Positions 23,297 through 27,613 of a DNA stretch of 35,720 nucleotides are shown here, one piece after another (the stretch's first letter is position 1; each line of letters opens with the position of its first letter). The notes beneath the pieces are model-generated. The model made no database searches, had not been told where the DNA came from, and was given only the letters and a program-made list of their open reading frames with translations. Both the position numbers and the translations under genes were made by a program. This DNA is from Acidobacteriota bacterium (GTDB lineage Bacteria > Acidobacteriota > DATKUA01 > JAFGBY01), in assembly GCA_016932915.1 (NCBI GenBank), contig JAFGBY010000024.1:1-35720 (forward strand). The letters are read 5' to 3'.

Positions 23297-23326
23297 TGTC
23301 ATGGCGGACTTGATCCGGCATCTTTA
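23297..23326. repeat. Palindromic intergenic repeat, unit 1
   Basis: It begins TGTCAT, has the central imperfect palindrome GGCGGACTTGATCCGGC, and ends ATCTTTA. It matches the units at 24566, 24743, 27521 and 27585. It lies between the pyr promoter and the HEPN-like gene. Confidence 0.75.
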
Positions 23327-23374
23327 AGAAGCGAGATGTTTATATACAAAGAATTATTATTCACCTGTTGAATC

Positions 23375-24112
23375 CTATGTATCTTCAATCCATGGAAATT
23401 TAAATATCCAATTCCAATTAGTAATAGGTTGACAAAAAAATCTTTTCTTGCCCGTTAATAATATCGAGGCATAATTAAGAGATTCCATAAGGTTTTTCAA
23501 TCCTTCTTCAATATTATCTAAATATATTGGAGGAATTTCTTCGGTATCCTTATCTTTATGGCTTATTATTTTATCAGCCCACTTTAGTAATGTATTGTTC
23601 TTACAACTAAGGCAATTATAATGATCCCAAATTCTGTCTTTATTAATAAAATCTTTTAAGGGCTCAGAGAATTTTTTAAATATTTTATAAGCTTCCAATA
23701 TCTCATTCTTTGTCAAGTTTGATAATTCTTGTTGAATTCTATTTTCAAATTGAGACTTTGAGAATATTTCATTATTTTGGTTATTATTTAATTTCTTAAA
23801 TAATTGTAACCATAAATAAGAAAGAGAGTTTTGTGCTGTTTTATTTAACTTTGTTGGTTCCCAGCTTGGTTTCATATGCCGCTTAATTCCCTGAACAGCA
23901 TAAGCAAGATATATAGAATTAAAAAAATACTTAAAATAAGAAGAATGTGTAATTGGGTTACCTTTACCATACAAATTGAAATTTGGATTTGCATTAATTA
24001 TATCCCAGGTACCTTTGAATAAATGAAAGTCTTGATATTGCTTTTGAAGGTCATTGTCTATCTCTTTAATTAAATCTGAGAATTCAGATTCTTTCTCTGA
24101 AATATCATTCAT
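23375..24112 (-). CDS. HEPN/AbiU2-like protein, hypothetical
   Basis: A 245-residue AT-rich gene. It is mostly predicted helix, with no signal peptide or membrane segment. The segment SSYFKYFFNSIYLAYAVQGI (about 57-76), followed much later by KWADKIISHKD (177-187), resembles AbiU2-type HEPN proteins, where an R/K-x4-6-H motif near the end of a four-helix bundle forms an RNase site. Here only K and His 185 can be aligned, so function is uncertain. AAGGA lies eight bases before the ATG. Its composition is much lower in GC than the pyr and mqn genes on either side, and repeat units flank it, so recent acquisition is likely. It could be an orphan defence or toxin-type gene; I see no partner antitoxin. 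Confidence 0.7.
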   Translation of the reverse strand: MNDISEKESEFSDLIKEIDNDLQKQYQDFHLFKGTWDIINANPNFNLYGKGNPITHSSYFKYFFNSIYLAYAVQGIKRHMKPSWEPTKLNKTAQNSLSYLWLQLFKKLNNNQNNEIFSKSQFENRIQQELSNLTKNEILEAYKIFKKFSEPLKDFINKDRIWDHYNCLSCKNNTLLKWADKIISHKDKDTEEIPPIYLDNIEEGLKNLMESLNYASILLTGKKRFFCQPITNWNWIFKFPWIEDT

Positions 24113-24216
24113 GTTTGATCCTTATAAATATTATATTATAATACCTTTTACTTTAAAAACACATAATCAAACAGTAGTTTAATATTTATTATAATTAATC
24201 CAGAATACTAAAATTT

Positions 24217-24510
24217 ATGAAATTCTACTACATTTATCTAATCACTAATTTTCACAACACAACGTTCTATACAGGTGTTACTTCGAATTTAAACAAACGG
24301 ATACATGAACATAAAACAGGAAAATCGGACTCAGCGTTTACAAAAAAGTACAAACTAATCAAGCTGGTTTACTTTGAAGAACATCGTGATATAACAACAG
24401 CAATACAAAGAGAAAAAACTATCAAGAGATGGCCACGTAATTGGAAGATTGATTTAATTGATGAAATGAATCCCGAATGGTCCGACTTGGCTTCAGATTG
24501 GTATGAATAA
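24217..24510 (+). CDS. GIY-YIG domain protein (UPF0213/YhbQ-like)
   Basis: A 97-residue protein consisting of one GIY-YIG nuclease fold. The YYIYLIT strand (residues 4-10) and FYTGVTSNLNKRIHEHK (17-33) carry the paired tyrosines, the catalytic Arg 28 and E31. REKTIKRWPRNWKIDLI (65-81) contains the conserved metal-binding Glu and the small-family tail, ending NPEWSDLASDW. Such stand-alone proteins are common, scattered and often next to repeats; their role is unclear (possible DNA nicking or repair). It is divergent from the HEPN-like gene, also AT-rich, and has no clear ribosome site. Confidence 0.88.
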   Translation: MKFYYIYLITNFHNTTFYTGVTSNLNKRIHEHKTGKSDSAFTKKYKLIKLVYFEEHRDITTAIQREKTIKRWPRNWKIDLIDEMNPEWSDLASDWYE

Positions 24511-24565
24511 AACAACGGATATTCTTAATTATGATTTGTATTGCTAGTAAGGCTATAACTCCGTA

Positions 24566-24593
24566 GAGACCCCGGATCAAGTCCGGGGTGACA
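24566..24593. repeat. Palindromic intergenic repeat, unit 2 (inverted orientation)
   Basis: A perfect hairpin, CCCCGGA (24570-24576), TCAAG, TCCGGGG (24582-24588), framed by GAGA and TGACAA. It is the reverse-oriented form of the unit at 23297. Confidence 0.85.
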
Positions 24594-24646
24594 AAGACCG
24601 TTACTAAACAACTTTAAATCAGAATATAAGTTCCGATGTTATTTGC

Positions 24647-24673
24647 CGGAAGCAGTGTTCTCCACTGCTTTCG
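24647..24673. repeat. Intergenic palindrome A
   Basis: AGCAGTG and CACTGCT around TTCTC, extended to an 11-base-pair stem with one G-T pair. It lies between repeat units 2 and 3. Confidence 0.7.
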
Positions 24674-24699
24674 CTACATTTGACATATAATTAAACGTT

Positions 24700-24728
24700 C
24701 CGGATATGGTGAAGAACACCATCTCCGG
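24700..24728. repeat. Intergenic palindrome B
   Basis: CCGGATATGGTG and CACCATCTCCGG around AAGAA, 12 base pairs with one mismatch. Sequence unrelated to palindrome A. Confidence 0.7.
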
Positions 24729-24742
24729 CGAAATTATTTACA

Positions 24743-24773
24743 TGTCATGCTGGACTTGATCCGGCATCTTTGA
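24743..24773. repeat. Palindromic intergenic repeat, unit 3
   Basis: It starts TGTCATGCTGG, has the centre GGACTTGATCC, and ends GGCATCTTTGA, nearly the same as the unit at 23297. With unit 2 in the opposite orientation it encloses palindromes A and B. It also lies just past the mqnE stop. Confidence 0.85.
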
Positions 24774-27375: not shown

Positions 27376-27480
27376 AAACTATAGAATTTAAAAGATTGGA
27401 TAAATTTATACCCCCTGACAGAAGAAAAATTCCTCTTCTATGGGGCATGATATCTTATCGCGACCCAAACAGATTGTTTT

Positions 27481-27503
27481 GGAGCAGGTCACAAACCTGC
27501 TCC
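27481..27503. repeat. Intergenic palindrome C
   Basis: GGAGCAGGT (27481-27489) and ACCTGCTCC (27495-27503) are perfect 9-base arms around CACAA. Confidence 0.85.
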
Positions 27504-27520
27504 GAAAAAGCTAACAAACC

Positions 27521-27547
27521 TGTCATCCTGGGCTTGACCCGGCATCT
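27521..27547. repeat. Palindromic intergenic repeat, unit 4
   Basis: TGTCATCCTGG, then CTTGACCCGG and CATCT: the same unit as at 23297 and 24743, in the same orientation. Confidence 0.8.
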
Positions 27548-27552
27548 AAAGC

Positions 27553-27577
27553 GGGTTCAGGTATCATACCTGAACCC
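27553..27577. repeat. Intergenic palindrome E
   Basis: GGGTTCAGGTAT (27553-27564) and ATACCTGAACCC (27566-27577) are perfect 12-base arms around a single C. It sits between units 4 and 5. Confidence 0.85.
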
Positions 27578-27584
27578 ACAATAG

Positions 27585-27613
27585 AGACCCCGGCTCAGGG
27601 GCCGGGGTGACAA
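27585..27613. repeat. Palindromic intergenic repeat, unit 5 (inverted orientation)
   Basis: CCCCGGC (27588-27594) pairs with GCCGGGG (27601-27607) around TCAGGG, framed by GAGA and TGACAA exactly as in unit 2. Confidence 0.85.

Follow-up and report, generated by a model that had tools for sequence, protein, structure and literature searches.

The window, a stretch of 35,720 nucleotides (positions 1 to 35,720 of contig JAFGBY010000024.1, assembly GCA_016932915.1, from an Acidobacteriota bacterium), carries near 24.6 kb two copies of a short hairpin-forming unit in opposite orientations, which a preliminary description had reported as a unit of roughly 28 bases. The two arms (24567 to 24593 and 24743 to 24769) are 27 nt each, are 81% complementary and enclose a gap of 149 nt. 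The first arm lies 56 bp beyond the end of a gene for a small GIY-YIG nuclease, and another unit, in facing orientation relative to the one at 24567, lies 920 bp from the gene on its other side with an open reading frame (ORF) intervening. The features of the region are as follows, with the supporting search in brackets.

23297 to 23323, plus strand: hairpin unit of CGTC type with a TGTC tag, forming the left outer end of a putative cassette (1 mismatch; covariance E = 1e-10)
23375 to 24112, minus strand: 245-aa ORF, possible cargo, separating the left unit from the nuclease gene
24217 to 24510, plus strand: gene for a 97-aa GIY-YIG nuclease of Ssn-like type (Pfam PF01541, 3e-15)
24567 to 24593, minus strand: CGTC-type unit, first of the two arms and right-hand outer end of the putative cassette (pattern and covariance model)
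24645 to 24673, plus strand: stem-loop A, second palindrome family (0 mismatches)
24701 to 24729, minus strand: stem-loop B, second palindrome family, facing A at a start offset of 56 (0 mismatches)
24743 to 24769, plus strand: CGTC-type unit, second of the two arms (pattern and covariance model)
27521 to 27547, plus strand: CGTC-type unit, left member of a facing dimer (pattern and covariance model)
27553 to 27577, no strand assigned: third-family palindrome inside the 27.5-kb dimer (family search)
27585 to 27612, minus strand: CGTC-type unit, right member of the facing dimer (covariance E = 6e-8)

We read the divergent pair as one end of the putative cassette plus a neighbouring unit, the larger structure being 23297 to 24593. 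The unit at 24743 is 84% like the left end of a composite on contig C170 over 38 bp and is probably the end of a neighbouring element. The putative cassette is itself atypical, since its left unit stands 920 bp off with an ORF between. Pfam and NCBIfam searches with that ORF found nothing at E values up to 1; the ORF resembles one (L005, 575 to 1459) adjoining a Y1 transposase gene on contig C84 (24% identity, E = 5e-7 for the pair). No close relative of the window genome was found in the set searched.

Searched as a pattern with up to 3 mismatches, the unit occurs at 19 places in the 2.33-Mb genome, compared with 0 for a reversed control pattern, and a covariance model made from 18 of the units returned 19 genome-wide matches (E ≤ 4.7e-7), the majority being the model's own members. 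The 18 aligned units share an 8-bp hairpin with a 5-nt loop, in which 97.9% of stem cells pair and double changes number 21 versus 6.9 in shuffles. Given the pattern counts and the compensatory stem changes, the unit family is real. A GTC tag is invariant in all 18 aligned units and the T preceding it nearly so; the first stem pair is A-U in 18/18, the second is U-A in 13/18 and C-G in 5/18, and the tail is mostly CTTTA. At L016 (approximately 1377 to 1427, contig C70 of genome G000), the loop of a unit holds a hairpin-like insert that resembles another CGTC unit.

The units also show the pairing preference that the preliminary description had proposed checking: four facing pairs within 200 bp (on C34, C170 and C70, and at 27.5 kb in the window) use 8 of the 19 strong units, a ninth (C37) faces a weak partner, and the two at 24.6 kb form the only divergent pair listed for the genome, with no head-to-tail pair within 200 bp among the 19. 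On C34 and C170 the composites, which lie in opposite orientation, match at 78% over 131 bp and have facing units whose starts are ~105 bp apart, while the C37 and C70 pairs align with them at ~64–67% and are more distantly related. Together these are a repeated, gene-less composite element of about 130–150 bp, and the suggestion that the units build composite elements was sound. Likeness between composites and cassette in the window genome hardly extends past the unit.

Other parts of the preliminary description needed correction. It had seen the same architecture again at 27.5 kb, where a second pair of units does surround a palindrome, but the units there face each other with their tags outside, whereas those at 24.6 kb diverge with the GTC tags inside. 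Interior palindromes, put forward as a general feature, were seen in only one of five facing pairs (weak pair counted). Stem-loops A and B do sit between the arms, but are not unrelated: both match GCCGGANNNRGTGTTCTYCACYNNNTYCG, a family distinct from the unit that occurs at 25 places in the genome (≤3 mismatches; control, 0). Members of this family, noted at window 24645 to 24729 and on G000 contigs C64, C72, C100, C109, C146, C147, C152 and C161, often occur as facing pairs. In nine of the places listed, the starts of two facing copies are offset by 45, 46 or 56, values about one helical turn apart. A GTAG tag on A was dropped as a family trait, being present in the window copy and absent from the other copies displayed. 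A third family consists of near-perfect palindromes (GGGTTCARGNATNATNCYTGAACCC) at 21 sites in G000, and a 15-kb stretch of C170 holds six of these. A fourth hairpin type, GGAGCAGGT...ACCTGCTCC, and its variants lie near several units (window 27480 to 27507; L006, L012 and L020). Intergenic spaces are common to several palindrome families.

The 97-aa protein consists of a single GIY-YIG domain, in which the residues conserved among its homologues are present, and its AlphaFold2 model has a pLDDT of 94.4. Foldseek placed the model with UPF0213, Slx1 and the UvrC GIY-YIG domain, UPF0213 alone passing E 0.001; by sequence, the family profile matches UPF0213, UvrC and I-TevI chains, the latter two weakly. 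A homologue in Neisseria gonorrhoeae, which we take to be the protein named SsnA, is 40% identical over 89 residues, and its locus has 16 dRS3-like units within 5.3 kb, with the starts of facing units ~101–106 bp apart. The gonococcal record (L195, NZ_CP119140.1; 2.17 Mb) is catalogued among plasmids and is evidently a chromosome. No relative of the nuclease on viral contigs was confirmed.

The company of unit and nuclease extends across many phyla. Our main sample comprised 80 loci found by a protein-only search (the best 80 of 581 confirmed). A strict detector found 102 units within 250 bp of the gene (2.58 per kb), 12 at 250–500 bp and 0.05–0.07 per kb beyond 500 bp, and placed a unit within 500 bp in 47 of these best 80 of 581 loci. 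Because this detector is blind to large or mismatched loops, we also applied a relaxed detector and a detector-free repeat test. Under the relaxed detector, 70 of the 80 loci (again the best 80 of 581) had a unit within 500 bp, 51 of them on both sides, and a facing pair surrounded the gene in 40, whereas random windows in the same loci had units in a mean of 5.6 of 79. Within 100 bp of the gene, 70 units were oriented as members of a facing pair and 32 otherwise (binomial p = 2e-4). Detector-free, a repeat shared between the two flanks reached at least the 99th control percentile in 63 of 77 loci versus 3 of 230 controls, three of the 80 having been dropped for short flanks.

A replicate in Flavobacteriales, with loci taken among the matches listed, gave units at 16 of 20 high-scoring GIY-YIG loci versus 0 of 20 lower-scoring ones, the latter (L224 to L243) being a small GIY-YIG family whose loci lack CGTC units. 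Other small GIY-YIG genes had units at 0 of 13. Among nine homologues that we take, from their repeat types, to be of the acidobacterial type, and so of the window genome's phylum, three had units in their loci. Whole genomes were also compared: an Ssn-like match was present in 13 of 17 Flavobacteriales genomes with exact class-I (loop-5) units versus 58 of 219 genomes without such units, among the matches listed (Fisher 5.6e-5; 8e-4 excluding genomes of ≤0.6 Mb). With a stricter cut of 85 bits, placed at a gap among the matches listed, the corresponding values were 0.006 and 0.028. Four of the 17 unit-bearing genomes had no Ssn-like gene among the matches listed, one of these having 21 units, and the genome-level link is moderate. 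Several genomes had multiple copies of the gene, some with internal stops, among the matches listed.

Unit sequences vary along with the nuclease. We distinguished class I from units with a 4-nt loop (class II) and units with a G-A mismatch (class III), the types met including GTCATTCTGAGC...GCGAAGAATC and GTCATTGCGAGG...GAAGCAATC. On a protein tree with many forks unresolved and 21 of 89 proteins without a unit label, class changed 5 times compared with a mean of 23.5 under shuffling (0 of 200 shuffles as low), and class III made up one side of a single branch (support, 94). Shuffling within phyla lowered the mean to 8.8 changes, with 9 of 500 shuffles as low as 5; the signal is weaker there and is therefore partly shared with taxonomy.

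Several loci behave as a mobile element might. Three Flavobacteriales records (L058, L077 and L083) have syntenic flanks, and in L077 the cassette between these flanks is inverted with respect to the other two. On Sphingobium megaplasmids, 7 of 11 Tom* records have a 380-bp cassette with fnrL on one side and a regulator gene on the other; in the nine sites aligned, the cassette is present in four records and missing from five (four Tom* records and S. herbicidovorans). The unfilled site of TomTYG64 and TomTYG74 holds a single hybrid hairpin, tagged at either end, which reads as if two units had fused through their arms. Double-tagged units as a common form were ruled out, with 1 in the scanned loci versus 387 single-tagged, a scan that skipped the TomTYG74 copy owing to mismatches. 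On a plasmid of Rhizobium sp. CIAT894, two gene-less facing dimers of 129 bp lie beside a 395-bp cassette. They match the cassette over 45 bp at its left end (93%) and 59 bp at its right end (90%), and are internal-deletion derivatives of it. Clear derivatives of this kind were found for 1 of 39 cassettes, each tested within its own locus, the matches in L080 being flanking dimers. In G074, four dimers at separate sites have much of one spacer in common.

Two Gastranaerophilales species (L048 and L049) share a 375-bp block that is 94.7% identical and stops at the outer tags; homology is absent immediately outside, and the flanks examined have no other protein in common. Both cassettes lie ~0.4 kb downstream of a tRNA-Val gene. 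Two separate insertion sites were considered and dropped, the same tRNA-Val gene being upstream of both, and the block may be one old insertion whose surroundings have diverged. The cassette occurs downstream of this gene in five records of one genus (L164 to L166, L048 and L049). In L190 and L191 the tRNA-Val gene stands without a cassette and the flanks are too diverged to define a junction; no clean empty site was found among the 33 genomes of the genus. In L049 and L077, the 3' end of the cassette and its unit are tandemly duplicated just downstream of the nuclease gene.

A nuclease of this kind has a counterpart in Neisseria. Ssn, in work by Chenal et al. that appeared in Nat Commun in 2025, is reportedly a site-specific GIY-YIG nuclease acting on single-stranded NTS/dRS3 repeats, and is said to have homologues in many bacteria and a role in neisserial natural transformation. 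Both systems have a small GIY-YIG protein, and the gonococcal homologue of the window protein sits among dRS3-like units; the window unit differs in sequence and loop, and cleavage of it by the window protein is a prediction. Element-like anatomy and deletion derivatives appear to be what the present analysis adds to that work. The partnership of unit and nuclease was thus probably known in outline; novelty may lie in the transposon-like anatomy and in the derivatives without the gene. The literature that we searched yielded no published link between GIY-YIG proteins and extragenic palindromes or MITEs.

The unit itself fits the CGTC superfamily of extragenic palindromes, defined in 2013 and described there as apparently without a dedicated transposase (Di Nocera et al. 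2013, PMC3733652). As described there, such REPs have an unpaired CGTC, TGTC or CCTC tag at one end, a stem of 8–9 bp in which positions 1 and 2 are almost always A-T and a loop of 4–5 nt; they occur predominantly as inverted dimers of one kind, and the neisserial dRS3 is the CGTC-1 member (PMC3733652). The window genome's units share with them the TGTC tag, the 8-bp stem, the A-T first pair and the 5-nt loop, as well as dimers built from unlike units, the spacer being conserved in some; the inverted arrangement also holds here (8 of 19 units facing, none head-to-tail). The tail is mostly CTTTA, in contrast to the CCA of the published repeats, but we treat CCA as non-defining because the source text has most tails, not all, fitting it (PMC3733652). 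A further difference is the GIY-YIG gene, a consistent neighbour here, whereas the 2013 paper found no dedicated transposase. Neisserial intergenic mosaic elements combine dRS3 with RS elements and, like the system here, have short palindromes in arrays, with spacers of 30–160 bp (PMC3898611). The dRS3 repeat given there, ATTCCC(N8)GGGAAT with ~700 copies, is another sequence than the window unit with ~20 copies, but the start spacing of facing units is alike (~101–106 bp in the gonococcus and ~105 bp in C34 and C170).

At a probability of roughly 0.55, we favour a reading in which the unit belongs to the CGTC-superfamily REPs and has the adjoining small GIY-YIG (Ssn-type) nuclease as its partner, the two together forming a minimal element with derivatives. 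This builds on the association across phyla, the frequent bracketing of the gene, the presence, absence and inversion of cassettes and the gene-less derivatives in one Rhizobium plasmid. The minimal element would be two facing units and the nuclease gene, ~375–470 bp in measured cases and about 1.3 kb with the extra ORF in the window; gene-less facing pairs would be non-autonomous derivatives and single units remnants. In single-stranded DNA the unit would fold into a hairpin, and the nuclease would recognise hairpin and tag and cut near the tag. Hydrolysis of DNA by GIY-YIG enzymes involves no covalent intermediate, for which reason we leave joining to the host: ligation or recombination would act preferentially from unit to unit, and could yield arrays, inversions and fused hybrid units.

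Much of this could also come from a host-level system that is not mobile, in which the nuclease acts on single strands bearing the unit, cutting them on entry or during replication, much as Ssn reportedly does in neisserial transformation, and units gather where they act. Close association and unit specificity are equally expected of such a system, the gonococcal homologue (40% identical, 16 dRS3-like units within 5.3 kb) suits it and the gene's constant place next to one tRNA-Val gene, seen in five or more records of a single genus, is resident-like. However, presence and absence at a plasmid site, inversion and gene-less derivatives typify an element, and the multiple gene copies in several genomes, some with internal stops (among the matches listed), also speak against it; we regard this explanation as unlikely, though one to be taken seriously. 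Host recombination alone is another candidate: short inverted repeats would invert, slip and cluster, and the nuclease would lie next to them through common ancestry. Slipped arm repeats could produce the hybrid unit and homologous recombination the inverted cassette, no enzyme being needed. This account is improbable in view of bracketing in many phyla by differing unit sequences that track the nuclease tree, and of other small GIY-YIG genes that lack bracketing.

The preliminary description had called the structure REP/BIME-like and pointed to a Y1 (TnpA-REP) transposase as the partner to look for. REP/REPIN systems with RAYT (REPtrons) likewise have dimers of small palindromes and a repeat-flanked partner gene, and the window genome has two Y1_Tnp genes and REPIN-like facing dimers, so that movement in trans by a Y1 enzyme might be imagined. 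But neither Y1 locus, over the sequence examined around the gene, contains a unit or an A/B hairpin, and the REPtron hallmarks of a GTAG tag and an HUH/Y1 enzyme are both absent from the window system, where the tag is GTC; Di Nocera et al. did not find CGTC repeats flanking Y1 genes either (PMC3733652). We give this account very little weight. No better placed is the view in which the units act as terminators of transcription or as hairpins that stabilise RNA, and spread passively, which GC-rich extragenic hairpins with compensatory changes might suggest. An intrinsic terminator is a hairpin followed by a T-run, and the sole terminator-like site called between 23200 and 24900 is at 23853, with none at the units, which bears out the earlier preference for a REP-like sequence over a terminator; regular dimer spacing, conserved spacers and bracketing of one gene family would also be left unexplained.

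We retain the unit and nuclease as partners in a minimal element, and extend this reading tentatively, at rather less than even odds, beyond the window genome: Ssn-type genes with facing CGTC units would form a class of minimal transposable elements moved by a hydrolytic GIY-YIG nuclease, and the CGTC repeats of many phyla would represent their termini, their remnants and derivatives of the MITE kind. These repeats are widespread, and in 2013 they were left without an enzyme; a consistent nuclease partner, together with unit classes that track its clades, makes their spread a question for cloning and cleavage. Such a partner would unite the dRS3 mosaics of Neisseria, the CGTC dimers and many unnamed intergenic palindromes as one system.
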